Assembly: GCA_024277895.1 (NCBI GenBank)
Contig: JAJRUH010000138.1
Coordinates: forward strand, 1-33,890
Direction of reading: 5' to 3'
Length of the DNA: 33,890 nucleotides
Source: Bacteroidota bacterium
GTDB lineage: Bacteria; Bacteroidota; Bacteroidia; Bacteroidales; JAADGE01
Below are positions 1,922 through 27,147 of this stretch, one piece after another (the first letter of the stretch is position 1; each line of letters begins with the position of its first letter). Both the position numbers and the translations under genes were made by a program. The notes beneath the pieces are model-generated. The model worked only from the letters and a program-made list of their open reading frames with translations, was not told where the DNA came from and searched no databases.

Positions 1922-4885
1922 TTATTTTATCATTATTTTTGAAACAACGGGATTGTTATCGTAATTTATGTGAATAAAATATACTCCTTTTGAAACATTT
2001 GTTAAATTAATAAGGTTTAAACCTTTATTTAAATTTGATTTTTCAATTATTACTTTTCCGGAAATATCGGTTATTGTCATAGTTGCTTTTGTGAAATTGT
2101 TGTTAAGGACAATATTGAAATTTCCGTTTGACGGATTAGGGAATATTTTAATCTTATTTACAGCGTGTATTTTTGCAATATTCGCAGACCCTGTTTCGTC
2201 AATTTGTACATCGTCAATTGCAATTCCGTATCCGTATTGTCCTGTTGCCTCAAAAGCAATATAGTATGTACTGCTTAGGTTAGGCAAATTTATTGTTTCT
2301 TGTGTCCAAGAATTAATATTATTTGTATATGTAGTCAGTAAATTCCAAGTACCTCCGGAGCTTGTTTTATAATATACTCTCAATTCGTATTGATCTCCTG
2401 CCCAATTTGCTTGTGTATGCCAAAACGTTAATTCAGCACCTGTAAGGGTTGATAAATCTAAAACCGGTATTATTAATTTACTGATATCAGCAGCAGATGA
2501 ACTATTATAGAATAATGCATTATAGTTTCCGCTGTTAGCTGAAGCAGGATTTCCGCTGTGTCCGCCGCTTTGATATGTCCAATCAGTTCCTTCGTACGAC
2601 CAGCAATTAGGCAATGCAGCACCTTCAAAATCTTCCGTAAACGGAAAAGATGTAACTATGCCGCATAAAGTTGTTGCATCAACTTCCGTACCCGGAGAAT
2701 AATTTGTTCCGCTAAGATTCGACCACGCTTTGTAAAAATATTGGGTTGAAGAATTTAAACCGGAATGATTAAAAGAAGTTCCGTTACCATAAGATAAAAC
2801 CATACCGCCGCCGGGTATCGCATCGCCGGAATTATATGTTGTTCCGTCAACAGGTGTCCCGAATGTTCCGTCAGCAGACCATGCAACAAGAACATTATCA
2901 TTTGATGCATTTAAAGACCAATTTAAATTAATTTGTGAAGTTGATACTGCATTTGCAATAAAATCAACGGGGTCTCCTGTAAGTGTAGAACCGGTAATAG
3001 TTGTACCGTTAGAATAAGTATTTCCCGATTGATACGACCATCCTCTGTAATAGTAGGTGGTTGCAGGACTTAAACCGGTATGGCTGTATGTTGTCGGGCT
3101 GGTTCCGTATGCCAAAACAATTCCTCCGCCGGGTAAAGCATCACCGGGATTATATGTTGTTCCGTCAACAGGAGTTCCGAAAGTTCCGTCTGCCGACCAT
3201 GCAATTAATGCAGGTTCTCCCTGCGAATTTAAATTCCATGATAAATTAATTTGCGTAGTACTTACTCCTTGGGCAATAAAATTATTAGGATCATCGGGCT
3301 CCGAGATTCTGAATGCATAAACTCGTGTTCCTGCCGAACCTCCGGCTTTCATATATTCTCCTGTATGCCAAAAAGTGTATCCGTCAGGGTCTAAGCAAGT
3401 TTGTGCATAATCACCGTCTCTGTTAGATGAAGTCTGAGAACCGGCACCTGCTTGAGCAATAACTTCTGCAATAGGTAAAGTTCCCAATTGGTCTGAAGAA
3501 TGACGTCCTGCATAAGCTAAACTCATATAAGTATCTGTGCTGTTTGCTTTTGCATAGCTTAGAGCAATATCTCCGGCATTATTCATTGCAATACTGCTCA
3601 TCCAATAATAATCTGTTCCCGGAGCATAAATTCCTTGTTGATAAATAGACCAAGTTCCGGAATTTTGTCTAAGTTCACACCAAAAAATACCTCTTTGAGA
3701 AGTACTTACTTTTACTGCCCAACTCAAAACGACAGAATTATATGAGCCGAAATTTTTCCATTGTGCTCTGTACATCAAACAACCTCCGATACCGTCGAGC
3801 TTTTGAGAAGTTCCGGGTTGCGGAATATCGTCCCAACCGGAATCGTAAGAACCGTCAAAAGATTGTGTAGGTAATGCACCGACTGAAGTAACAGTCATTG
3901 AAGGTGTTCCGCTCCAATCAACCGAAGCATTATATATATTAACGGCATCAATATTTCCGCCTCCCCATCCGTTGTCGGAATAAGAGAAAATAGGACAAGG
4001 TGTTCCTGCACCCGGCATAATACCGTCTGAGGCATCTGCAGGCAGAGGAACAAAGAAACCGCTTTGCGGCGGTGCAAATGATTGATATACAGCTTCGGCA
4101 GTTCCGTCACCGGCAAGCATTTTTGTTCTGTTAAAAGCAAATATTTTTTGTGCATAATTTGCCGTCATATAATAACCGTCTTGCCAAGCTGAGAATTTTA
4201 AGTAATCAGGAAAATCAGGAGAAGTAAATGTATATGTGTACCATACTCCTGTAGGATCGTTAGTTTCGGAAATTGCAATATGAATATCATTGGAGCTATC
4301 ATCAAATTGGCTAAGGAACCATCTGTCGGCAGATTTGTCGAATAATACAATGGGGTCTCCGGCATTTCCGGTACTTGGTGTCCATAAATCACCAAGGATA
4401 CCGGTGAGAATAATATTTCCGTTTGATTTATCATAAATTTGATAAGTTGTTGCATTTATCATTTGAATATAATAATTTGAACTGACGGCACCGCTCGGGT
4501 CAAAAGGGCGAAAACCCGAAGCAGTTTGTCCTGCCCAATTTTGCAAAGGTGCTTTTTCTGCATATTTTCCGAGACTTTTTTGTATTAAAGAAGGATCATT
4601 CCCATATTTGATTCCGTTTTTTTCAACTGTAAACGGAAAGGTTTGAACAGGCCTCCCTTTTTCGTCAGGATATTCCGAAAATGAATATGTTTTGTTTTCA
4701 ACAATCGGATGTTCTGCAACAATTTCACGCAGAGGTTTTGTAATATTAAATTCAGAACAATGAATAATATGGGTTTTATTTTCCCATTTTATATTTAACA
4801 TATTGTTGGTTTCGGATTTTTGAGAATAACCGTAATTAATATATAAAAATGATAAACTCAAAAGTAAAAGAATCGTTTTTTTCAT
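1922..4885 (-). CDS. Secreted multidomain protein with type IX secretion sorting domain
   Basis: A 987-residue exported protein. It has a signal peptide (MKKTILLLLSLSFLYINYGYSQ). A ~450-residue aromatic and glycine-rich region follows, with repeated Trp, Asp and Gly patterns suggestive of a beta-propeller. Next are two fibronectin-type-III-like modules of about 106 residues, both containing WSADGTFGTPVDGTTYN. A MAM/jelly-roll-like domain follows (FPFTEDFEGAALPNCWSYEG ... GIAIDDVQIDE), and then a C-terminal Por secretion domain of ~75 residues (KIFPNPSNGNFNI ... GVYFIHINYDNNPVVSKIMIK). The last domain is the known signal for export by the T9SS and attachment at or release from the cell surface. 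I see no catalytic motif, so adhesion or binding is a guess. A strong terminator follows the gene. Confidence 0.9.
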   Translation of the reverse strand: MKKTILLLLSLSFLYINYGYSQKSETNNMLNIKWENKTHIIHCSEFNITKPLREIVAEHPIVENKTYSFSEYPDEKGRPVQTFPFTVEKNGIKYGNDPSLIQKSLGKYAEKAPLQNWAGQTASGFRPFDPSGAVSSNYYIQMINATTYQIYDKSNGNIILTGILGDLWTPSTGNAGDPIVLFDKSADRWFLSQFDDSSNDIHIAISETNDPTGVWYTYTFTSPDFPDYLKFSAWQDGYYMTANYAQKIFAFNRTKMLAGDGTAEAVYQSFAPPQSGFFVPLPADASDGIMPGAGTPCPIFSYSDNGWGGGNIDAVNIYNASVDWSGTPSMTVTSVGALPTQSFDGSYDSGWDDIPQPGTSQKLDGIGGCLMYRAQWKNFGSYNSVVLSWAVKVSTSQRGIFWCELRQNSGTWSIYQQGIYAPGTDYYWMSSIAMNNAGDIALSYAKANSTDTYMSLAYAGRHSSDQLGTLPIAEVIAQAGAGSQTSSNRDGDYAQTCLDPDGYTFWHTGEYMKAGGSAGTRVYAFRISEPDDPNNFIAQGVSTTQINLSWNLNSQGEPALIAWSADGTFGTPVDGTTYNPGDALPGGGIVLAYGTSPTTYSHTGLSPATTYYYRGWSYQSGNTYSNGTTITGSTLTGDPVDFIANAVSTSQINLNWSLNASNDNVLVAWSADGTFGTPVDGTTYNSGDAIPGGGMVLSYGNGTSFNHSGLNSSTQYFYKAWSNLSGTNYSPGTEVDATTLCGIVTSFPFTEDFEGAALPNCWSYEGTDWTYQSGGHSGNPASANSGNYNALFYNSSSAADISKLIIPVLDLSTLTGAELTFWHTQANWAGDQYELRVYYKTSSGGTWNLLTTYTNNINSWTQETINLPNLSSTYYIAFEATGQYGYGIAIDDVQIDETGSANIAKIHAVNKIKIFPNPSNGNFNIVLNNNFTKATMTITDISGKVIIEKSNLNKGLNLINLTNVSKGVYFIHINYDNNPVVSKIMIK
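2658..3293 (-). repeat. Two tandem ~318-bp repeats coding for FN3-like modules
   Basis: The two modules of the secreted protein are direct repeats at the DNA level with a period of 318 bases (106 codons): about 2976-3293 and 2658-2975. The best-conserved block (around 2831-2880 and 3149-3198) is nearly identical and codes for the segment with WSADGTFGTPVDGTTYN. The period is a whole number of codons, so gain or loss of a module would keep the frame. Confidence 0.8.
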
Positions 4886-5236
4886 ATTAGTGAAATTAAA
4901 ATTTGATTATTAAAATATTTGGCAATAAAAAATTTTCAGACTATTTATAATTTATAAATATCTTAAATTTAATATCAAAAACTATGATACAATATTAGTG
5001 TATTGGTTGCAATAAATTATTATTTTTTTTTACAAAATAACATTTAGTCGTTAAAAAGTTGTACTTTAATTACAGGGCTAAAACTTTGGTTGTTTTCAAA
5101 AGTTCAACAGCCGATATTTTTAAAGACTGTATGTATGCAGGAACCGGTATTTTGTATCGTGTTTATAAGGGATTTTTGTACAGATAAGTAAATTAATATA
5201 TCTTTCGGAAATTTAATAATTTAAGATAAGTTTTTA
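4886..5236. other. Divergent intergenic spacer of 351 bp
   Basis: This spacer separates the minus-strand T9SS cargo gene from the plus-strand reductive-dehalogenase-like gene, so it must hold promoters for both. I found no exact TAnnTTTG element in either direction; the nearest plus-strand partial match is GTATTTTG around 5148-5155. The right half is less AT-rich than the left. It holds a plus-strand open frame without a convincing start (about 5041-5188, ending ...YRVYKGFLYR), containing one internal ATG at about 5130 that would give 18 residues. I do not call this a gene. No RNA gene or riboswitch was recognised. Confidence 0.6.
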
Positions 5237-6586
5237 ATGTTTAAAATTATAACATTAATAATTGCTGTTGCTGTTTTAATATTTCTGATAAGTTCGGTGT
5301 TTATTTCATTGAATGAAAATGAAAAACATGCAGCATACAGATTATTGAGTTTATCCGTAATTTTTTCTTTATTGCTGTCAGTTCCTTTTATTTTTCACTT
5401 TAGTGAATTTTATTTTGCTGTTCTGTCGGGAATTTTTATACTCATAATTTTACTGTTGATTATTCCTGTTAAAGGAAAATTACATAAAACAGAAACACCG
5501 AAAACTCAGATTGATGAACGCAATATTATGTTTTCACGGGCAGAACTTATTCCGGAAACAGAAAGATTTATAAACTATTATTCCGAGCATCCCGAAAATC
5601 TTGAAAAGGATAATAAATTCAGAAAAAATTCCGGTTTATTACAAGCCGGAACTGCAAAATATAATTCCTTACTATTTGCACTTGCCGATGCGTCATTTTA
5701 TACCGTTGAAAGTTTCAAATATAGAGTTGACGGAAAATTATCTGAAACTAAAATACCTGTTTCTCCGGAAAAAATTACTGAATTTATTAAAAAATATATG
5801 GAGTTTTCAGGTGCGAAAGCGTGCGGTGTTACGGAATTAAAAAAATATCATTTATACAGTTACGGGGGCAGGGGAGGTGCATACGGTAAAAAACTTACAA
5901 ACACGCATAAATTTGCGATTGCAATAACTGTTGAGATGTCAAAAAAGATGACCGATACGGCACCGGCAGCCCCAACAGTTACCGAATCGGCAAGGCAATA
6001 TCTCGAAGTCGGTAAATTAGCGGTACAATTAGCTGCATTTATCAGAAATACAGGCTATTCCGCCAGGGCTCATATTGACGGAAATTATGAAGTAATTTGT
6101 CCGCTTGTTGCAAAAGATGCAGGATTGGGTGAAATTGGTCGTATGGGTTTGCTGATGACCCCGGAATTAGGTCCGCGTGTACGAATTGCAGTTGTAACAA
6201 CTTCATTAGAAATGATTCCTGATAATCAGTTTCAGGAAAATTCGGTAATTGATTTTTGTATTCAATGTAAGAAATGTGCTGTTACTTGTCCTTCACAAGC
6301 TATTTCATTTTCCGACAGAGAAAAAATAAACGAAGTAATTCGTTGGCAGATAAACCAGGAAGCTTGTTATACATATTGGACAAAATCCGGTACGGATTGC
6401 AGTAAATGTCTGCAAGTTTGTCCGTATTCACATCCAAATAATTTTTTACATAATATAGTGAGAAAAGGAATAAAAAATTCTGTTATTTTTCGTAAATTTG
6501 CTTTAACAGGTGATGATTTTTTATACGGTAAAAAACCAAAAGCAAAAGCATTCCCGGAATTTATGAAAATAGATGTTAATAACTGA
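5237..6586 (+). CDS. Membrane-anchored reductive-dehalogenase-like Fe-S protein
   Basis: 449 residues. The N-terminus has three hydrophobic segments (about 5-24, 37-56, 59-77) and no twin-arginine signal. The rest resembles the corrinoid-binding fold shared by reductive dehalogenases and epoxyqueuosine reductase (QueG). It includes KDAGLGEIGRMGLLMTPELG (293-312) and two ferredoxin-type cluster motifs: Cys341, 344, 347, 351 (CxxCxxCxxxCP) and Cys377, 388, 391, 395 (Cx10CxxCxxxCP). The segment ACYTYWTKSGTDCSK reads like a dehalogenase second-cluster region rather than QueG. Known relatives use a cob(I)alamin-type cofactor and two 4Fe-4S clusters to reduce organohalides. The substrate here is unknown, and the enzyme may not be a dehalogenase at all. 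No small RdhB anchor gene is adjacent; the protein's own helices may replace it. An SDR gene follows after 44 bases and is likely in the same operon. Confidence 0.8.
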   Translation: MFKIITLIIAVAVLIFLISSVFISLNENEKHAAYRLLSLSVIFSLLLSVPFIFHFSEFYFAVLSGIFILIILLLIIPVKGKLHKTETPKTQIDERNIMFSRAELIPETERFINYYSEHPENLEKDNKFRKNSGLLQAGTAKYNSLLFALADASFYTVESFKYRVDGKLSETKIPVSPEKITEFIKKYMEFSGAKACGVTELKKYHLYSYGGRGGAYGKKLTNTHKFAIAITVEMSKKMTDTAPAAPTVTESARQYLEVGKLAVQLAAFIRNTGYSARAHIDGNYEVICPLVAKDAGLGEIGRMGLLMTPELGPRVRIAVVTTSLEMIPDNQFQENSVIDFCIQCKKCAVTCPSQAISFSDREKINEVIRWQINQEACYTYWTKSGTDCSKCLQVCPYSHPNNFLHNIVRKGIKNSVIFRKFALTGDDFLYGKKPKAKAFPEFMKIDVNN

Positions 6587-6630
6587 TATACAGATAAACG
6601 CATACTTATAAAAATATTAAATAAAAGACT

Positions 6631-7446
6631 ATGGAACATGCAGTAATTACCGGAAGTTCTTCGGGAATAGGATTTGGTTTGGCAACAGAATTTTTAAAGA
6701 ACGGATTTTCTGTTACAATTTCGGGCAAAAACGATGAAAAACTTAACAGTGCGGGAGGAAAACTAATAAAAAGCTTCTCAAAAAATTCTGTGCATATTCA
6801 AACTTGCGATGTTCGTTCATGTTCTGATATAAAGAATTTATGGAATTCTGCAAAGAACAGGTTCGGACACGTTGATATTTGGATAAATAATGCCGGAACA
6901 GGACAAGATTTTATTTTTATTAAAGATTTAGAAGAAGATGCAATTAATTTAATTATTGATACAAACATCAAAGGTGTCATTCAAGCAAGTCGAATTATTT
7001 ATAATAAAATGTCGGAACAGGGTTTTGGTGCCGTTTATAATATGGAAGGTTTCGGAAGTGACGGAAGAAAAATGCAAAAAATGAGTATTTACGGAACATC
7101 GAAATCAGCACTGAGCTATTTTACCAAAAGTTTTATAAAAGAAACAATACATTCACCTGTGATAATCGGAACAATAAGTCCGGGAATGGTGTTGACGGAT
7201 TTGTTTTTAAGACCTGCCGACAGAGATGTGAAAGAAGCGAAACATTTTTTGAAAATTACAAATATTTTGGCAGATAAGGTTGAAACAGTAACACCTTGGT
7301 TGGTAAATAAAATGATAAATAATACGACACACGGTAAATCATTTAATTGGTTAAATTCAAGAAAAGTAACGGCTCGTTTTATAAGTTCTTTATTCAGAAA
7401 AAGAAAATTATTATACCCTGCAGACCTCAACATAAAAACAAATTAA
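6631..7446 (+). CDS. Short-chain dehydrogenase resembling chlorophyll b reductase NYC1/NOL
   Basis: 271 residues with a complete SDR core. TGSSSGIG (7-14) binds the dinucleotide, NNAG is at 86-89, and YGTSK gives Tyr154 and Lys158 as the catalytic pair. The region around the usual catalytic Ser reads NMEGFGSDG (138-145 approximately) and is followed by SPGMVLTD (183-190). From memory, this NMxGxGSxG plus SPGMVLTD combination, and a later stretch like ILADKVETVTPWLVNKMI, match plant NYC1/NOL chlorophyll(ide) b reductases better than ordinary SDRs. A Bacteroidota cell is not expected to make chlorophyll b, so the true substrate is probably another tetrapyrrole, aldehyde or ketone. It lies 44 bases after the reductive-dehalogenase-like gene and the two probably share a transcript. 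The SDR call is certain; the subfamily call rests on motif memory. Confidence 0.85.
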   Translation: MEHAVITGSSSGIGFGLATEFLKNGFSVTISGKNDEKLNSAGGKLIKSFSKNSVHIQTCDVRSCSDIKNLWNSAKNRFGHVDIWINNAGTGQDFIFIKDLEEDAINLIIDTNIKGVIQASRIIYNKMSEQGFGAVYNMEGFGSDGRKMQKMSIYGTSKSALSYFTKSFIKETIHSPVIIGTISPGMVLTDLFLRPADRDVKEAKHFLKITNILADKVETVTPWLVNKMINNTTHGKSFNWLNSRKVTARFISSLFRKRKLLYPADLNIKTN

Positions 7447-7496: not shown

Positions 7497-7578
7497 GCGG
7501 ATGTGGCGAAATTGGCAGACGCGCTAGACTTAGGATCTTGTGCCGCGAGGCGTGGGGGTTCGAGTCCCTTCATCCGCA
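7497..7578 (+). tRNA. tRNA-Leu (anticodon UAG)
   Basis: An 82-base class II tRNA. The acceptor stem GCGGATG pairs with CATCCGC (7571-7577), followed by discriminator A at 7578. The anticodon loop is CTTAGGA with anticodon TAG (reads CUN Leu codons). The long variable arm contains GCC-GCGA-GGC, and the T loop is TTCGAGT. The anticodon stem has one U-U mismatch, and the T stem uses two G-U pairs. The 3' CCA is not encoded (only CA follows the discriminator), so it must be added after transcription. Confidence 0.95.
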
Positions 7579-7580
7579 CA

Positions 7581-7607
7581 AACCGCTTGTGTTACAGGCG
7601 GTTTTTT
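7581..7607 (+). terminator. Terminator hairpin after tRNA-Leu
   Basis: AACCGCTTGT (7581-7590) pairs with ACAGGCGGTT (7594-7603) through nine Watson-Crick pairs and one G-U, with a GTT loop, followed by a run of six Ts. This is a strong intrinsic terminator between the tRNA and tig, 26 bases before the tig start. Confidence 0.85.
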
Positions 7608-7632
7608 AATTTTTTAAATTGATTTTAATTTT

Positions 7633-8997
7633 ATGGAGATAACAAAAACAAACAAAGATGAATTGAATGCCGTAATTTCATTGAAAATATCGGCGGAAGA
7701 TTATGCCCCGGCAGTTGAAAAGGAACTTAAATCCTATCAAAAAACTGCACAAATAAAAGGATTTCGACCGGGTAAAGCACCTATGGGTTTAATTAAAAAA
7801 TTAGCAGGAAATCAAATTGTTATGCAGGAACTGGATAAAATGGTTTCTGATAAACTGACACAATATTTAATTGATGAAAAATTAGATATTCTCGGACAAC
7901 CATTACCGTCTGACGACCAACAACCTGTTGATATTATAAATGAAAAAGAACATGAATTTTTGTTTGATATCGGTTTGGCTCCTGAAATAAATTTTGAAAT
8001 TAATGAGAAAATCCAAATTCCGTACTATAAAATTAAAATTGATGATGCTTTAATTGACGAAGAAATTAAAAGACATCAAAATCAATTTGCAACTGCGGAA
8101 CAAAGTGAAAAAGTTGAAGCAAATTCATACCTTAAAGGAAATGTAACTCAAACAGATAAAACAGGAAAACCCGTTGAAGAAGGAATTTTTTCCGAAGATA
8201 CCCTTATTGCCGTTGATGTAATAAAAGATGAAAAAGAAAAAGAAAAATTTCTCGGTGCAAAATTAAATGATGTTGTTGTATTCGACATTAAAAAAGCATT
8301 TCCGAATAATACGGAAATTGCCGGTATTTTAAAAATTGATTCCGCTGAAGTTGATGCACTTGAGCCTGATTTTAATTTTTTAATTTCAGAAATTACAAGC
8401 TACACTCCGGCAAAAATTAATCAGGAACTTTTCGATAAAGTTTACGGAAAAGATACTGTGAAGAATGAGGAAGAATATCGTGAAAAAATTAAAGAAAATA
8501 TTGCAAAAGTGTATGCCGACGAATCAAAATATCGATTTGCCGTTGATGCCAAAGAAATATTAACTGAAACAGCTGCCGTAAAATTACCCGACGAATTTTT
8601 AAAAAAGTGGCTTAAAGTTACAGACCGAGAAGGTAAACTGAATGATGAAATTCTTGAAAAAGAATATCCTGTTTTCAGTAAAGATACTCAATGGCAATTA
8701 TTAAAAGGTGAAATTGCAAAAACTGAGGATATTAAAATAAGCGAAGAAGAAATACGAGAAGAATCAAAACGATTTACCGAAGCTCAATTTATTCAGTACG
8801 GTTTGCCTTTATCTTCAATAAGTGATGAACATATGCAAAGTTTCATTGATAAAAATTTGGAAAAACAGGAAGATCGTAATAAGTTTGCAGAAAAAGCAAT
8901 GGAAAATAAAGTCTTCGATTCTGTAAAAGAAAAAGTTAAAATACAAGAAAAAGAAATTTCGGTTGATGATTTTAAAAAATTATATGAACAAAATTAA
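7633..8997 (+). CDS. tig: Trigger factor, ribosome-associated chaperone
   Basis: 454 residues, a usual length. The N-terminal domain holds the ribosome-docking signature GFRPGKAP (43-50). The middle is the FKBP-type prolyl isomerase region (about 150-250), which looks divergent, and the C-terminal part is the long helical chaperone domain ending in KKLYEQN. Trigger factor binds near the exit tunnel through ribosomal protein uL23 and shields nascent chains. The gene is followed after 11 bases by clpP and then clpX, the conserved tig-clpP-clpX order. No promoter element was seen between the upstream tRNA terminator and the ATG. Confidence 0.93.
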
Positions 8998-9008
8998 AAT
9001 TCAATACT

Positions 9009-9683
9009 ATGAACGTTAATGAATTTAATACATATGCAACAAAGCATAAGGGCATCAGCAGCCTGAATTTACATAAATATTATAAAGCTGTTCAAAACAG
9101 TTATATTTCGCCGACTATTATTGAAGAACGACAATTAAATGTTGCACAAATGGATGTTTTTTCAAGATTGATGATGGACAGAATTATATTTTTGGGCTTA
9201 CCGATAGATGATTATGTTGCAAATATCATTCAGGCTCAATTACTGTTTTTGGAATCTTCAGATCCGTCAAAAGACATTCAAATTTATATTAATTCACCCG
9301 GCGGCGGAGTGTATGCCGGACTGGGAATTTATGATACCATGCAATATATAACACCTGATGTTGCAACCACGTGTACCGGAATAGCAGCATCAATGGCAGC
9401 CGTGTTATTGGCAGCAGGTGCTAAGGATAAAAGAGCCGCTTTAAAACATTCCAGAATAATGATTCATCAGCCGATGGGCGGTGCTCAGGGACAAGTTTCC
9501 GATATTGAAATTACATATAATGAAATTAAAAAACTTAAAGACGAATTATTTCAAATTATAGCGAAACATACCGGTAAAACTTTTAAAAAAATTGAAAAAG
9601 ATTCTGACAGAGATTATTGGATGAAATCGGAAGAAGCTAAAGCATACGGAATGATTGATCGTATTTTGGTAAATGACAAATAA
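9009..9683 (+). CDS. clpP: ATP-dependent Clp protease proteolytic subunit
   Basis: 224 residues. The catalytic triad can be placed by spacing against the E. coli enzyme: Ser128 in GIAASMAA, His153 in MIHQPMGG and Asp202 in DSDRDYWM. The oxyanion-hole segment [11 protein letters not shown] (94-104) is intact. The N-terminus is ~30 residues longer than the mature E. coli form, consistent with a propeptide that is cleaved. ClpP forms a double heptamer barrel that degrades substrates fed by ClpX, encoded 45 bases downstream. The clpP-clpX gap is an AT-rich stretch with small imperfect repeats around AATTC and no obvious promoter. Confidence 0.97.
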
Positions 9684-9728
9684 GAAAGCAATTAACAATT
9701 GAAAATTCATAATTTATAATTCATTTAA

Positions 9729-10955
9729 ATGGATAAGTGTTCTTTTTGCGGCAGGAAACGTTCTGAAGTTAATTTATTAATTTCGGGTGTTACAGGTTTT
9801 ATTTGTGATGAATGTTCTGCTCGTGCTTATGAAATAATTAAAGAAGAAAAACTTACAGGGAAAGAAAAAAGTAAATTTGATATTAACAAAATTAAAGTAA
9901 AAAAACCTGTTGAAATTAAAGAATTTCTTGATCAATACATTATAGGTCAGGAATACGCAAAAAAAGTTTTGTCTGTTGCCGTTTATAATCATTATAAAAG
10001 ATTATCTGTTTCAGATATTACAGATAATGACGGTGTTGAAATTGATAAATCAAACATTATTATGGTCGGTGAAACCGGAACCGGAAAAACGCTGATTGCA
10101 AAAACTATTGCAAAAATGTTACATGTTCCGTTTACGATTGTTGATGCAACGGTTTTAACCGAAGCCGGTTATGTGGGTGAAGATATTGAAAGTTTACTGA
10201 CAAGACTTTTGCAGGCGGCAGATTACAATGTTGAGAAAGCCGAACAGGGAATAGTTTTTATTGATGAAATAGATAAAATTGCCCGAAAAGGTGATAATCC
10301 TTCAATTACCAGAGATGTTTCCGGAGAAGGTGTTCAGCAGGGATTATTAAAATTATTGGAAGGTGCCGTAGTAAATGTTCCTCCCCAAGGCGGGCGTAAG
10401 CATCCGGAACAAAAAATGATTCCGGTTAATACAAAGCATATTCTTTTTATTGCCGGCGGTGCTTTTGACGGAATAGAAAAACAAATTGCCCGAAGATTAA
10501 ATACACAGGTTGTCGGTTTTGATAAGCAGGAAAAAAATCAGATTGATAAAGAAAATTTCCTGCAGTATGTTTCTCCTCAGGATTTAAAATCTTTTGGTTT
10601 AATACCGGAAATTATCGGCAGAATGCCTGTTCTGACTTATTTAAATCCTTTAGACAAAAAAGCATTGCGAGCCATTTTAACAGAACCCAAAAATTCTATC
10701 ATTAAACAATATATTAAGTTATTCAAAATAGATAAAATTGATTTACATATCAATGATAATGTTTTGGAATATATTGTGGATAGGGCAATTGAGTATAAAA
10801 TCGGTGCCAGAGGTTTACGCTCAATTTGTGAAGTAATTATGACTGATGCTATGTTTGAATTACCTTCAAAAAAAGTGAAAAAATTTACGATTGATTTGAA
10901 ATATGCAAAATCAAAATTAGAGAAAACGAATATTAAAAAATTGAAAGTTGCATAA
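9729..10955 (+). CDS. clpX: ClpX, ATPase and unfoldase subunit of the Clp protease
   Basis: 408 residues. The N-terminal zinc finger has Cys4, Cys7, Cys26 and Cys29. The AAA+ module has Walker A GETGTGKT (114-121), pore loop GYVG (147-150) and Walker B IVFIDEIDK (175-183), and ends in a C-terminal helical domain with GARGLRSICE (sensor II). ClpX recognises and unfolds tagged substrates and threads them into ClpP. It is the last gene of the tig-clpP-clpX unit. The next gene is convergent, 120 bases away, and I saw no strong terminator hairpin in that gap. Confidence 0.97.
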   Translation: MDKCSFCGRKRSEVNLLISGVTGFICDECSARAYEIIKEEKLTGKEKSKFDINKIKVKKPVEIKEFLDQYIIGQEYAKKVLSVAVYNHYKRLSVSDITDNDGVEIDKSNIIMVGETGTGKTLIAKTIAKMLHVPFTIVDATVLTEAGYVGEDIESLLTRLLQAADYNVEKAEQGIVFIDEIDKIARKGDNPSITRDVSGEGVQQGLLKLLEGAVVNVPPQGGRKHPEQKMIPVNTKHILFIAGGAFDGIEKQIARRLNTQVVGFDKQEKNQIDKENFLQYVSPQDLKSFGLIPEIIGRMPVLTYLNPLDKKALRAILTEPKNSIIKQYIKLFKIDKIDLHINDNVLEYIVDRAIEYKIGARGLRSICEVIMTDAMFELPSKKVKKFTIDLKYAKSKLEKTNIKKLKVA

Positions 10956-16921: not shown

Positions 16922-17752
16922 ATGGGAAATAAAAAACCGAACGAAATGTCATTTTTGGAACATTTAGATGCTTTAAGAAAACATTTAATACGTTCAATTT
17001 TATTTATTATCATATTTGCTTTTGCAGCATTTTTTTTTAAAGATTTTGTTTTTAATGATATTTTATTAGCACCTAAAATGCCGAGTTTCATTACTAACAG
17101 AACAATGTGTCGATTGAGTGATTTTTTGGGGACGAAATCTCTTTGTATTAATCAAAAACCGTTCAGTATTATTAATATTAAAATGACAGGTCAGTTTATG
17201 ACCCATATTACTGTTTCATTAATTATAGGTTTGGTAGTTGCATTTCCCTTTGTTTTTAATGAGTTCTGGAAATTTTTAAAACCGGCATTGAAAAAGAAAG
17301 AGATTAGTAACAGCCGAGGGGCTGTATTTTTTGCTTCGGTATTATTTTCACTCGGTGCATTATTCGGTTATTACATTATTGTTCCCTTATCTATGAATTT
17401 TTTAGGTAATTATAATGTCAGTCCCGAAGTTGTTAATAAAATAAATTTAAATTCTTATATCCAAACGTTTACTTCTGTTGTTCTGGCATCTGCCGTTGTT
17501 TTCGAATTGCCGGTTCTGATTTTCTTTTTAAGTAAAATCGGTTTGGTTACCCCGAAATTTTTAAAAAAATATCGAAAACATTCCTTGGTTGTTATCTTAG
17601 CTTTATCGGCAATAATTACACCTCCCGATATTTTTTCTCAAATTTTAGTGAGTTTACCTTTGTGGCTTTTGTATGAAATCGGTATCGGAATTTCAAAACG
17701 TGTTGAAAAAAGAAATGCAAAGAAATTTTTACCGGATGTTGTCGAAAAATAA
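16922..17752 (+). CDS. tatC: Twin-arginine translocase subunit TatC
   Basis: 276 residues. The N-terminal signature MSFLEHLDALRKHL (9-22) precedes six hydrophobic segments, in agreement with the TatC fold. The conserved PALKKKE loop and the helix with SAIITPPDIFSQ near the end also fit. TatC binds the twin-arginine signal and exports folded proteins, often cofactor-containing ones. The loop after the first helix (about 45-80, with MCRLSDFLGTKSLC) is longer than in E. coli, a feature I associate with Bacteroidota forms. The stop is only 7 bases from the stop of the convergent oxidoreductase gene. No TatA/B gene is in the window. Confidence 0.95.
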   Translation: MGNKKPNEMSFLEHLDALRKHLIRSILFIIIFAFAAFFFKDFVFNDILLAPKMPSFITNRTMCRLSDFLGTKSLCINQKPFSIINIKMTGQFMTHITVSLIIGLVVAFPFVFNEFWKFLKPALKKKEISNSRGAVFFASVLFSLGALFGYYIIVPLSMNFLGNYNVSPEVVNKINLNSYIQTFTSVVLASAVVFELPVLIFFLSKIGLVTPKFLKKYRKHSLVVILALSAIITPPDIFSQILVSLPLWLLYEIGIGISKRVEKRNAKKFLPDVVEK

Positions 17753-23563: not shown

Positions 23564-24466
23564 ATGCAGGTATCATACATTTTAAAGTCCAAATTTCAAA
23601 TATTTATTGAAAATTTTCTTATATCAATAAAATCTATAATTAAGGTACTTACTCTTTCGAAAAAGAATCAATTTCCTAAAAATAAAACGATAAAAGAAGA
23701 ATGTGTAATTCTCGGAAACGGACCATCGCTTAATGAGACAGTTAATAATCATAGTCGTTTTATGTCAGATAAGACATTGATATGTGTAAATCATTTTGCA
23801 TCCTCTGAACTTTACGAAAAATTAAAACCGGAAATTTATGTAATTATTGCTCCTGAATTATGGTTAGATAATGTTGAAGACATTTACAAACAAAAAGGCA
23901 AAGTATTATTTCGAGATATTTCAACAAAAACTAAATGGCCTATTATGCTTTTTATTAGTATTGGAGCAAAAAAATACGAACATAAATTTGAAGAATTTAA
24001 AAAGAATAAAAATATCAGTATTTTTTATATTAATACCACGGGTGTTGAGGGATTTAAAAACTTAATTTTTTATTTATACAAAAAAAGACTGGGAATGCCG
24101 CGACCTCATAACGTTTTAATTCCTTCATTGATGTTATCAATATATTTTCGCTTTAAAAAAATATACTTGACCGGGACTGATCACGATTGGTTAAAATATA
24201 TAATTGTAGGACAAGACAATAAAGTTTATTTAACACAAAAGCATTTTTATGACGAAAAAACCGCAACACCGCAGCCAATGCTTCTTGTTGGCAAAGGGGA
24301 AAGGCGATTGCACGAAATTCTTGATAAATTCAGGATTTCGCTTAAAGGATATTTTATTATCAGAGAATTTGCAGAACAAAATAATTGTCAAATAATTAAT
24401 CTTACTCCAAATTCTTTTATTGATGCTTTTGAGAAAAAAATACTTGTAAATGGACAAATCAATTAA
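23564..24466 (+). CDS. Putative sialyltransferase-like glycosyltransferase (GT42/DUF115-like)
   Basis: 300 residues. After an N-terminal hydrophobic stretch (about 8-30) come GNGPSL (51-56), VNHF (75-78), YLTGTDHDW (201-209) and NLTPNSFIDAF (279-289). This order and these motifs recall Campylobacter CstII-type sialyltransferases (GT42), which have GNGPSL, CNQF, SGID and CPNS in the same places; a DUF115-like fold is the alternative. The next two genes make and activate a nonulosonic acid, so transfer of that sugar is a plausible role. The ATG of the next gene lies 17 bases inside this one, so the two are translationally coupled. The transferase class is an inference from motifs, not proven. 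Confidence 0.6.
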   Translation: MQVSYILKSKFQIFIENFLISIKSIIKVLTLSKKNQFPKNKTIKEECVILGNGPSLNETVNNHSRFMSDKTLICVNHFASSELYEKLKPEIYVIIAPELWLDNVEDIYKQKGKVLFRDISTKTKWPIMLFISIGAKKYEHKFEEFKKNKNISIFYINTTGVEGFKNLIFYLYKKRLGMPRPHNVLIPSLMLSIYFRFKKIYLTGTDHDWLKYIIVGQDNKVYLTQKHFYDEKTATPQPMLLVGKGERRLHEILDKFRISLKGYFIIREFAEQNNCQIINLTPNSFIDAFEKKILVNGQIN

Positions 24467-26090
24467 TATTCTTATAGTTATTCCTGCTCGAGGTGGATCT
24501 AAAGGAATTCCCAGAAAAAATATTAGAGCTCTTAATGGCAAACCTCTAATTTATTATTCTATTAAGACTGCTCTGAAATCAGTTTTTAAACCAACAGTTG
24601 TTGTCTCTAGCGATGATGAAGAAATACTTGGTATCGCTAAATTGTTTGGTGCTGAAACATTAAAAAGAGCAAAAGAACTGGCAGGTGACGAAATAACCTT
24701 AGACGCGGTAATTTTTGATGCTTACCTTAATGCTGAAATTTTGTTTAATACAAAATACGATTTTGTTGTTACTCTTCAGCCTACGTCTCCTTTGCTAAAA
24801 ACAAAAACTCTTGATGATGCCATTCAAAAACTTATTGACAATCCTGAAAAAGATTCTGTCATTTCAGTCAAAAATGATACACATCTTTGCTGGCGAAAAG
24901 ATAATAACAAATTTATTCCTATTTATAAAGAACGGTTAAACAGACAATATCTACCCAAAGTATATACTGAAACCGGAAGTTTTTTTATTACCAACACAAA
25001 AATTTTAACACAAAAAGACAGAATTGGAACAAATGTAGATATTTATCTGCTTAAAAGCGATGAAGGAATTGATATTGATTCGTTTGCAGATTGGAATTTA
25101 TGTGAATATTACCTCAGACGAAAAAAAATACTAATTGTCGTTTCCGGATACAACGAAATTGGAATGGGACACATTTACAGAGTTATAAATATTGCTAATG
25201 ACATATTAAATCATGAAATAATATTTTTAACAGAAAAAAAGAGTAATTTGGGATACGAAAAAATTAAATCATTGAATTACAATGTTTTGATGCAACAAAA
25301 TGAAGATATAAAAGATGATATTGTAAAAATTTCTCCTGATGTTATAATTAATGATATTTTAGATACAAGTATTGAATATATGAAAGGATTGAAGAAAATC
25401 TGTTCAAAAATAATTAATTTTGAAGATTGCGGCGATGGCAGTATTTATGCTGATATAGTTATAAATGCCTTGTATTCTGAAAAAAATATTTACAAAGAAA
25501 AATATTATTATGGTGATAAATATTTTATTGCACGTGATGAATTTATATTCTCAGAAACTAAACAAATCACTTCAAAAATAAAAAATATACTTATAACATT
25601 TGGGGGGACAGATCCCAACAATTTTACATTAAAAACTTTAGATGCAATTTATGAATATTGTAAAAAAGAGAACATTATTATTGATGTAATTCTTGGTTTA
25701 GGTTATTCAAGTTTTGATTCGCTGAAAAAATTTAAAAATATTACGATAAAACAAAACGTAAAAGATATTACAACTTATATGAATAAAGCAGATTTAATTT
25801 TTTCTTCTGCCGGACGTACAGTATACGAAATTGCAATTATTGGGACCCCAAGCATTATTTTATGTCAAAATCAAAGAGAAACAGAGCATCTGTTTGCTTC
25901 TGAAGAAAATGGGTTTATTAATCTTGGTGAAGGTAAAAATATTTCAACAGAAAAATTATTCAATACATTTATTGATATTGCAAATAATTACGCAAAACGA
26001 AAAATTTTAAATAAAAAATTATTAGTATCTGATTTAAAAAGCGGAAGGAAAAGAACATTGAAAATAATTAATGATTTTATTAACGAATAA
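24450..26090 (+). CDS. Fusion of CMP-nonulosonate synthetase and PseG-like NDP-sugar hydrolase
   Basis: 546 residues in two parts. Residues 1-220 are a CMP-acylneuraminate cytidylyltransferase (NeuA/PseF type): IPARGGSKGIPRKN (11-24), SSDDEEI (53-59), LQPTSPL (109-115), ETGSFF (174-179) and GIDIDSFAD (206-214). Residues 226-546 resemble PseG, the GT-B-fold hydrolase that removes UDP from the precursor of pseudaminic acid: GMGHIYR (238-244, with His241 in the position of the PseG catalytic His), FGGTDPNN (384-391), SSAGRTVYE (452-460) and CQNQRETEH (472-480). The two activities sit on either side of the synthase step encoded next, so one protein may make the substrate and activate the product. 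Which nonulosonic acid is made is not decided by the sequence. Confidence 0.88.
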   Translation: MDKSINILIVIPARGGSKGIPRKNIRALNGKPLIYYSIKTALKSVFKPTVVVSSDDEEILGIAKLFGAETLKRAKELAGDEITLDAVIFDAYLNAEILFNTKYDFVVTLQPTSPLLKTKTLDDAIQKLIDNPEKDSVISVKNDTHLCWRKDNNKFIPIYKERLNRQYLPKVYTETGSFFITNTKILTQKDRIGTNVDIYLLKSDEGIDIDSFADWNLCEYYLRRKKILIVVSGYNEIGMGHIYRVINIANDILNHEIIFLTEKKSNLGYEKIKSLNYNVLMQQNEDIKDDIVKISPDVIINDILDTSIEYMKGLKKICSKIINFEDCGDGSIYADIVINALYSEKNIYKEKYYYGDKYFIARDEFIFSETKQITSKIKNILITFGGTDPNNFTLKTLDAIYEYCKKENIIIDVILGLGYSSFDSLKKFKNITIKQNVKDITTYMNKADLIFSSAGRTVYEIAIIGTPSIILCQNQRETEHLFASEENGFINLGEGKNISTEKLFNTFIDIANNYAKRKILNKKLLVSDLKSGRKRTLKIINDFINE

Positions 26091-26100
26091 TTCATGAATA

Positions 26101-27147
26101 ATGAGGATCTTAGATTTTTTTAGAAACCCCGGTTCTTACTCTAAGCCATATATAATTGCCGAAGCAGGAGTAAACCATGAAGGGAAAATGGATTTAGCCA
26201 AAAGGCTTATTGATGAAGCAAAGGAAGGTGGTTCTGATGCTATAAAATTTCAAACTTATAAAGCTCATCTTATTGCATCAAAAAATTCTCCTTCTTACTG
26301 GGACACGAAAAAAGAATCTACAAAATCACAATACGAACTTTTTAAAAAATATGATAATTTTTGGAAAAAAGAATATGAAGATTTAAAAATTTATTGTGAC
26401 AAAGCAGATATTGAATTTCTTAGTACTCCTTTTGATTTAGAATCATCAAATTTTCTTAACGATATTATTGATGCCGTTAAAATATCTTCTTCGGACATTA
26501 CAAATAAACCATTCATTGAACATCTTTGTAAATTTAACAAACCGATTATTTTATCTACAGGTGCAGCAAATTTGCAAGAAATACGCGAAGCAGTCTCTTG
26601 GATTGATGAATATGGAAACGATCTTTCCTTATTGCATTGTGTGTTAAATTATCCCACCAGTTACGAAAATGCAAATCTGGGAATGATTTATGGGCTGAAA
26701 AAAGCATTTCCAAGTAAAATAATAGGTTATTCTGACCACACTTTTCCCGGAGATATGTCAATTTTAGAAACAGCTTTTTTATTAGGAGCAAGAATTATTG
26801 AAAAACATTTTACTTTTGATAAAAATATACCCGGAAATGATCATTACCACTCAATGGATAAAGAAGATTTGAAGATATTTATACAAAAATTAGATCAAAA
26901 AATAAAATATATAGGGAAAACTAATGTTGATTATATTCCAAGCGAAGAGTTATCACGGCTAAACGCACGAAGAAGCTTAGTTGCTCTTAAGAATATTCCG
27001 GAAGGAAAAATTATTGATAAATTTGACTTAACTTGGAAACGTCCCGGAATTGGTGTAAGTCCGAAATTTATTGAAGATGTTATCGGAAAAACAGCAAAAA
27101 AAAATATTCAGATTGATGAAATTATAAAGAATGATTTTTATGAATAA
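26101..27147 (+). CDS. neuB: Nonulosonic (sialic) acid synthase, NeuB/PseI/LegI family
   Basis: 348 residues. The TIM barrel has AEAGVNHEG (20-28), KFQTYK (49-54), STPFD, SSSDITN, STGAA, GYSDHTFPGD and the active-site segment EKHFTFDKNIPGNDHYHS. The last ~60 residues form an antifreeze-like SAF domain (NARRSLVALKNIPEGKI). The family condenses phosphoenolpyruvate with a six-carbon amino sugar to a nine-carbon nonulosonic acid. Whether the substrate is ManNAc (NeuB), 6-deoxy-AltdiNAc (PseI) or the legionaminic precursor (LegI) cannot be told, but the neighbouring PseG-like domain favours a diacetamido-trideoxy sugar. It lies 10 bases after the fusion gene; the next gene overlaps its end. Confidence 0.93.
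   Translation: MRILDFFRNPGSYSKPYIIAEAGVNHEGKMDLAKRLIDEAKEGGSDAIKFQTYKAHLIASKNSPSYWDTKKESTKSQYELFKKYDNFWKKEYEDLKIYCDKADIEFLSTPFDLESSNFLNDIIDAVKISSSDITNKPFIEHLCKFNKPIILSTGAANLQEIREAVSWIDEYGNDLSLLHCVLNYPTSYENANLGMIYGLKKAFPSKIIGYSDHTFPGDMSILETAFLLGARIIEKHFTFDKNIPGNDHYHSMDKEDLKIFIQKLDQKIKYIGKTNVDYIPSEELSRLNARRSLVALKNIPEGKIIDKFDLTWKRPGIGVSPKFIEDVIGKTAKKNIQIDEIIKNDFYE

Follow-up and report, generated by a model that had tools for sequence, protein, structure and literature searches.

The window analyzed here, a 33,890-nucleotide stretch of DNA from a draft Bacteroidota genome (3.19 Mb, 95.7% complete), encodes a 449-amino-acid protein that is a single-chain member of the published family of hybrid putative reductive dehalogenases (RDases). 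On balance, we think it probable, with considerable doubt left, that this membrane-anchored hybrid works as a reductive dehalogenase on the cytoplasmic side of the membrane and that the SDR encoded next to it acts separately. The adjacency of the two genes marks a single sub-clade within one genus and is of uncertain meaning. The features of the locus are collected in Table 1.

Table 1. Features of the RDase-SDR region, in window positions
Feature	Position	Strand	Remarks
Divergent protein with Por secretion tail	1922-4885	-	Precedes the RDase-SDR pair
Hybrid putative reductive dehalogenase, 449 aa	5237..6586	+	RdhA-type domain bearing two [4Fe-4S] motifs, preceded in the same chain by an RdhB-like three-helix anchor; predicted corrinoid enzyme
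Three N-terminal helices, residues 2-26, 30-52, 57-75	5240..5461	+	Secondary structure of the AlphaFold2 model
Tyr255 codon	5999..6001	+	Catalytic position; counterpart of Tyr246 in S. multivorans PceA and of Tyr337 in D. hafniense PceA
Arg316 codon	6182..6184	+	Aligns with PceA Arg305 / Arg396
Two [4Fe-4S] motifs, C341/C344/C347/C351 and C377/C388/C391/C395	6257..6424	+	
C-terminal stretch with H399, H405, R409, D426, Y430	6431..6526	+	Aligns with DhPceA menaquinone-pocket residues
SDR of NYC1/NOL-like family, 271 aa	6631..7446	+	Motifs, profile, tree
tRNA-Leu	7497..7579	+	Bounds the variable region; followed by tig, clpP, clpX

Family, fold, and active site of the hybrid RDase

According to PMC6797604 (Atashgahi 2019), hybrid putative RDases have three N-terminal helices, an EXE motif, and two iron-sulfur motifs but neither a Tat signal nor rdhB, and they are listed there in Marinilabiliales and many other groups; PMC12090745 reports RDase genes in Bacteroidota bins, some of them without rdhB. 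In our protein, the three helices appear both in the structural model and as hydrophobic sequence, and the first loop reads E27-N-E29, with E27 kept in 34/34 and E29 in 28/34 rows of alignment A1, which comprises 34 rows. Both iron-sulfur motifs of the hybrids, CxxCxxCxxxCP and CxxCxxxCP, are present (C341-x2-C344-x2-C347-x3-C351-P, next C377, and C388-x2-C391-x3-C395-P). By eye, no twin-arginine motif was seen at the N terminus and no rdhB-like ORF of at least 40 amino acids adjoins the gene on the plus strand between 4886 and 7481, where the sole ORF besides the two genes (42 amino acids, 5059-5187) has neither a helix nor EXE, so that the Tat signal and rdhB of respiratory RdhA are both lacking. 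The window also carries tatC at 16922-17749, and the missing Tat signal is therefore not due to want of TatC.

A sequence-only reading of this DNA had described the first protein as Tat-less, anchored by three helices, carrying both ferredoxin motifs, and lacking rdhB, all of which we confirmed by eye, by the model, and by the ORF scan; its coordinates, strand, and motifs for both genes were right. It had also proposed an undescribed route, which for the RDase part does not hold, given that hybrid RDases were already published in 2019 (PMC6797604).

The protein belongs to the reductive-dehalogenase family and lies outside QueG. The NCBIfam reductive dehalogenase profile TIGR02486 matched it at 1.2e-42 with 146.9 bits, below the curated cut-off of 160.35 (143.1 bits in the whole-genome search, also under that cut-off), and matched 34/34 aligned hybrid members, the best at 6.7e-55. 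The QueG profile TIGR00276 gave 2.8e-9 and 36.4 bits, short of its cut-off of 200, and it too matched 34/34 aligned members, all with E of at most 1e-5 and the best with 2.6e-12. We counted these QueG matches, together with the TIGR02486 score below its cut-off, against the RDase reading. A separate, full-score QueG (325 bits) is encoded elsewhere in the same genome. The best PDB sequence match was NpRdhA, followed by SmPceA and DhPceA and then by QueG. A quick tree built from 57 rows, with long branches flagged, has a branch with an SH-aLRT of 97 that separates 43 hybrids from the classical RDases (two rows) and catabolic RDases (four rows), with QueG lying far away; the PMC6797604 sequences were left out of it. 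The RDase set omits L001, L002, L006, L009, L023, L024, and L026 (L006 and L009 being the G018 copy), the tree alignment omits L003, L005, L008, L010, L028, and L029 (duplicates, along with the G033 fragment), and L095, from which no ORF was obtained, is in no tree. A corrinoid methyltransferase activase was also considered as an identity for the protein and was rejected, its match being weak and limited to residues 323-397.

Structure prediction, which the sequence-only reading had proposed as a check, gave a confident RDase fold that is nearer to NpRdhA and DhPceA than to QueG. The AlphaFold2 model (mean pLDDT 93; our RDase models carry no cofactors) matched NpRdhA (4ras) in VIA-align with a Z of 37.2 over 337 residues at 2.6 Å and DhPceA (8q4h) with a Z of 35.9 over 350 residues at 2.9 Å, followed by SmPceA at about 32 and QueG at 15.8; in Foldseek, 8q4h was the top match and QueG ranked far lower. 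From this fold, we infer that the enzyme binds a corrinoid.

The protein has the catalytic pair of reductive dehalogenases (Tyr plus Arg/Lys), and both Y255 and R316 are kept in 34/34 rows of alignment A1 and in 43/43 hybrid rows of the tree alignment. The corresponding D. hafniense PceA residues, Y337 and R396, are named as essential in PMC10624902. The same columns hold Glu and Phe in the genome's own QueG and Tyr and Lys in four catabolic plasmid enzymes. The Tyr and Arg pair also occurs in two classical plasmid enzymes and in seven short, uncharacterized RDase-like rows outside the shown hybrids, and the presence of the pair in those seven means that it is not proof of dehalogenation.

According to PMC6797604 and PMC10624902, what the hybrids do and whether they are active is unknown. 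We considered that an RDase-fold corrinoid reductase might instead carry out a reaction other than dehalogenation, for example a reductive removal of oxygen as QueG does, and we regard this as unlikely, if worth keeping in view. The hybrid clade stands apart from the RDases compared, both in our tree and in the cited text of PMC6797604, which for its part reports no carrier as dehalogenating with the hybrid. Against this stand the dehalogenase Tyr/Arg pair, invariant in the hybrids and lacking in the genome's QueG, and three loci of one genus with the hybrid RDase ahead of a fluoride-channel gene. At these loci (G625, G528, and G704; 3 of the 65 further hybrid loci), the RDase precedes DUF493 and crcB, as called by Pfam on the L079 copies; two of these loci have gaps below 30 bases. 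A crcB gene next to a hybrid RDase would fit halide release, and this neighbor in another genus makes fluorinated compounds substrates worth trying. No fluoride riboswitch was found beside the three crcB loci at E 0.1, and among the literature titles listed for reductive dehalogenases with CrcB or fluoride, none was on hybrid RDases.

Membrane orientation and electron donor

In the hybrids, both the catalytic domain and the EXE loop most likely face the cytoplasm, inverted relative to RdhA/RdhB, as predicted from the distribution of positive charges. Lysine and arginine were more numerous in the loop between helices 1 and 2 together with the flank after helix 3 than in the N terminus together with the loop between helices 2 and 3 in 34/34 rows. 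The means over the 34 rows were 2.94 for loop 1-2 and 4.06 for the flank, compared to 0.29 for the N terminus and 0.53 for loop 2-3, with loop limits taken from the model of the window RDase and the flank set at 17 positions after helix 3. In two RdhB controls from named plasmids, such residues numbered 0 and 1 around the EXE loop, compared to 5 and 4 in the C-terminal tail, so that their EXE loop is on the side poor in these residues, and the RdhB EXE loop is placed on the P-side in PMC10624902. It is the asymmetry in all the rows, read with these controls, that predicts a cytoplasmic EXE loop and catalytic domain in the hybrids. Mixed TMHMM orientations are given for hybrid RDases in PMC6797604; the charge test yields one clear orientation prediction, which can be checked.

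The C-terminal stretch of the RDase bears on the electron donor. K489, H495, R499, D515, and Y520 are among the DhPceA residues at the menaquinone, according to PMC10624902. H495, R499, and D515 align with H405, R409, and D426 of the window RDase, each kept in 34/34 rows; K489 aligns with H399 (His in 33/34), and Y430 (34/34) lies one residue off Y520. The retention of these residues in the hybrids suggests a retained quinone site.

We therefore weighed whether the hybrid is a one-chain menaquinol:organohalide oxidoreductase like DhPceA2B2 and coupled to respiration, and we judge this distinctly improbable. The kept pocket residues favor it, as do the position of the EXE loop on the side of the catalytic domain and the likening of the hybrids to the PceA2B2 complex in PMC10624902. 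The same source notes that some of the menaquinone residues are conserved also in organisms without quinones, which weakens the argument from the pocket. The cytoplasmic orientation would, moreover, put quinol oxidation opposite to the published redox loop. A search for menA (TIGR00751, which covers the menA route only) found it in 0/3 genomes of the genus, whereas the same search was positive in 9/14 control genomes, including a Bacteroides.

The neighboring SDR and the distribution of the pair

The 271-amino-acid protein carries the motifs TGSSSGIG, NNAG, NMEGFGSDG, YGTSK, and SPGMVLTD, and its N112, S143, Y154, and K158 are invariant in 21 rows. Pfam and NCBIfam assign it as a generic SDR only. 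NYC1 and NOL are plant chlorophyll b reductases. A profile built from 21 members of the family gave 206 bits to a provisional NOL sequence, compared to 105, 105, and 48 bits for three generic SDRs, and in a tree covering 26/29 green-sulfur loci (L044, L049, and L050 missing; L107 left out) the same provisional sequence grouped with the family at 98, at a point where long branches meet. The NYC1/NOL likeness put forward in the sequence-only reading is thus probably right as homology, and the protein probably does not fall inside the generic SDRs.

The SDR family also holds homologues from green sulfur bacteria. They came from the phylum sample, in which the SDR was found at E 1e-30 in 60/395 genomes, namely, our own and 59 of a single family (best per-genome identity, 32 to 44%). 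The chlorosome family PF02043 occurs in 10/10 tested genomes of that family, which marks it by content as green sulfur bacteria. At 20/29 green-sulfur loci, the SDR is adjoined by a homologue of an FrhB-type gene (called with Pfam FrhB_FdhB_N and _C and with NCBIfam on the L043 copy only), which we take to be BciB/HCAR-like. PF02043, the one phototrophy family searched, was found in 0/3 genomes of the window's genus, our own included. Among the 393 genomes of the order sample, 12 carry the SDR, and its neighbors in nonphototrophs were varied and indicated no function.

The pair lies before a tRNA-Leu followed by tig and clpP; the order tRNA-Leu, tig, clpP is conserved in the genus. In the sample of relatives, the RDase was found in 8/60 genomes (E 1e-10) and the SDR in 3/60 (E 1e-30), our own counted in both, and in all three SDR genomes (the window's genome G000, G012, and G005) the RDase lies directly upstream on the same strand. 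The intervening gap is 44 bases in the window, 150 in G012, and 155 in G005. In G005, the contigs break off near uvrA and shortly after the tRNA; G009 has uvrA directly before tRNA-Leu-tig, so a move of the G005 pair to an unrelated locus was rejected, and the pair probably lies in the same neighborhood with uvrA between. Most relatives lack the RDase, and it is split over two frames in G018 and matched over residues 3-214 only in G033, which indicates that it is dispensable. The RDase has a dN/dS of 0.19 to 0.21 and the SDR one of 0.16 (tig, 0.08, and clpX, 0.05, both for G000 versus G012), low enough that both genes look maintained.

Beyond the genus, the two genes part company. Across 65 further hybrid loci, the window excluded, this SDR adjoins the RDase only in the congeners G012 and G005. 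The pairs L015/L127, L017/L130, and L020/L140 among these loci probably each represent a single contig, many of the stretches run into the end of their contig, and fragmentary or nonhybrid matches (such as G466, G541, G561, G695, and G785) were left out, as were G018 and G033. L022 has a generic SDR at 26% identity that is not adjacent to its hybrid RDase. In a further contig collection, the SDR stood beside the RDase in 1/13 loci, that one being, by length and identity, the G012 contig. In the order sample, the RDase was found in 59/393 genomes and both genes in 6/393; the four both-carriers outside the genus (G542, G658, G687, and G769) have them on different contigs, with no such SDR on the RDase stretches. 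RDase-like matches at E 1e-15 numbered 8/395 in the phylum sample, our own included; the seven others (29 to 36%) start at residue 150 at the earliest and so are not shown hybrids. No neighbor family is shared by more than 7 of the 65 hybrid loci, which is what a self-contained enzyme would lead one to expect. No close relatives were found in viral contigs, and no plasmid record covers 80% of the RDase; ten plasmid records have partial matches to classical or catabolic RDases and one a 31% match to the SDR. Of the RNA families, only the tRNA reaches the gathering score in the window, and among the literature titles surveyed, none paired a hybrid RDase with an SDR. The conserved two-gene unit of the sequence-only reading, which had itself proposed counting how often the genes are neighbors, thus fails by that reading's own rule: the genes are rarely adjacent elsewhere, the two further loci both belonging to congeners.

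We nevertheless considered a two-step cytoplasmic pathway on one substrate, in which the corrinoid enzyme would remove a leaving group and the SDR would reduce a carbonyl, and we give it little credence. The order and strand of the genes are kept in all three SDR genomes of the genus over about 27% protein divergence, both genes have low dN/dS, and 6 of the 12 SDR genomes in the order sample also carry the RDase (hypergeometric P of 0.004, or 0.043 without our own genus, uncorrected for kinship). One of these, G769, encodes the SDR that is sister to those of the trio, and its RDase is a hybrid. The RDase gene is on another contig there, as in G542, G658, and G687, and the pathway must also be set against the 0/65 further hybrid loci with an adjoining SDR outside the two congeners, against the varying gap, and against the fourth RDase carrier of the genus, G001, whose RDase belongs to another subclade and in which no such SDR was found at E 1e-30.

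A bolder version would make the hybrids inverted, single-chain counterparts of PceAB that reduce organohalides from the cytoplasmic side, with the SDR recruited in this genus to act next, also in the cytosol, on the same substrate; what the pair reduces might then be an aromatic or chlorin ring that carries a formyl or halogenated group. The recruitment step is modeled on green sulfur bacteria, whose SDR often stands beside the FrhB-type reductase, and we find this version very doubtful.

Proposed activity and comparison with known systems

The reading we prefer remains that of a self-standing, membrane-anchored dehalogenase facing the cytoplasm. Electrons would pass through the two [4Fe-4S] clusters to the corrinoid, and the reduced cobalt would act on a carbon-halogen bond, with Y255 as the presumptive proton donor and R316 assisting. 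With the catalytic domain in the cytoplasm, the reaction would serve as a detoxifying step or as an electron sink fed from the cytoplasm and not as periplasmic organohalide respiration. We take the SDR to be, most probably, a carbonyl reductase of the NYC1/NOL-like type that uses NAD(P)H and acts separately from the RDase. That the first protein is a QueG paralogue acting on tRNA can be dismissed despite its weak match to the QueG profile, given that the genome has its own QueG (325 versus 36 bits), that tree, fold Z, and active-site residues all differ, and that a membrane anchor is present.

The SDR shares with NYC1/NOL and with the green-sulfur proteins the family motifs and full-length similarity, at 32 to 44% to the latter, and differs in that its host has no chlorosome protein found and its neighbor is an RDase instead of an FrhB-type gene. 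NpRdhA, a catabolic enzyme that is presumably cytoplasmic, resembles the window RDase in fold and in the catalytic Tyr; the window RDase differs from it in that the second catalytic residue is Arg and not Lys, in that a fused reductase domain is lacking, and in its membrane helices. Catabolic RDases as a group are described as cytoplasmic in PMC6797604. With DhPceA2B2 (8q4h; PMC10624902), which that source suggests the hybrids resemble, the likeness extends to the fold, the Tyr/Arg pair, the two clusters, the EXE-bearing anchor, and the quinone-pocket residues, whereas the window RDase is one chain and not two, lacks a Tat signal, has a predicted inverted orientation, and belongs to a genus in which menA was not found. 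With the hybrids of PMC6797604, as far as described in the portion used, the window RDase is alike in length, three helices, EXE loop, iron-sulfur motifs, absence of Tat signal and rdhB, and occurrence in Bacteroidetes, and we found no difference in the RDase itself; an SDR neighbor is not mentioned in that portion. The same text of 2019 asked whether hybrids dehalogenate and how exoplasmic ones would be exported without a Tat signal, questions of some reach given how widespread the hybrids are in Bacteroidota and candidate phyla. Relative to what these two sources contain in the parts cited, our analysis adds a probable cytoplasmic orientation and the apparent retention of the PceA menaquinone-pocket residues, and the latter, together with the conserved catalytic pair, make the question of dehalogenation by the hybrids directly testable.

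Surroundings of the RDase-SDR pair

The genes tRNA-Leu, tig and clpP are invariant in the 13 of 14 genus genomes that have a tig match (the window and L114-L126), whereas the content upstream of tRNA-Leu differs across the genus, with the RDase-SDR pair, uvrA or other genes found there. In the congener G005, the gap between the RDase and SDR genes contains, by eye, an apparent imperfect inverted repeat, and the two genes may therefore be separate transcripts there. Elsewhere in the window, cytidylyltransferase and NeuB genes (Pfam) probably represent a surface-polysaccharide gene cluster for a nonulosonic (sialic-type) acid.

Hybrid RDases beside crcB and incomplete copies

The order hybrid RDase (with a fused N-terminal membrane anchor), DUF493 and crcB, a fluoride channel gene, was found in 3/65 hybrid loci, all from one genus of the window's order. 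This placement of crcB would fit fluoride release. A fluoride riboswitch was not found at these three crcB loci in an Rfam search. The hybrid RDase is split over two frames in G018 (contig C296; L006, L009), and its N-terminal part occurs alone in G033 (contig C68; L008), reflecting either decay or assembly error.

Coordinates of the features discussed
Feature	Location	Additional ORF
tRNA-Leu, tig, clpP	window 7497-10955	
Cytidylyltransferase and NeuB genes	window 24450-27147	
G005 RDase-SDR gap	L066:6028-6187	
Hybrid RDase-DUF493-crcB	L079:1447-3978	
Hybrid RDase-DUF493-crcB	L084:1459-3908	112-113 aa
Hybrid RDase-DUF493-crcB	L086:1465-3898	112-113 aa

NYC1/NOL-like SDRs in other lineages

The SDRs of L104, L105 and L106, from one non-phototrophic genus, form a divergent subgroup of the NYC1/NOL-like family; nearby lie genes for a flavodoxin-like protein and a cation-efflux-like protein, both assigned by eye only. 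In the chlorosome-bearing family (L037-L065), an FrhB-type gene, which we take to be BciB/HCAR-like, adjoins the SDR in 20 of the 29 loci. Together, this SDR and FrhB-type gene resemble the plant enzyme pair that converts chlorophyll b to a.
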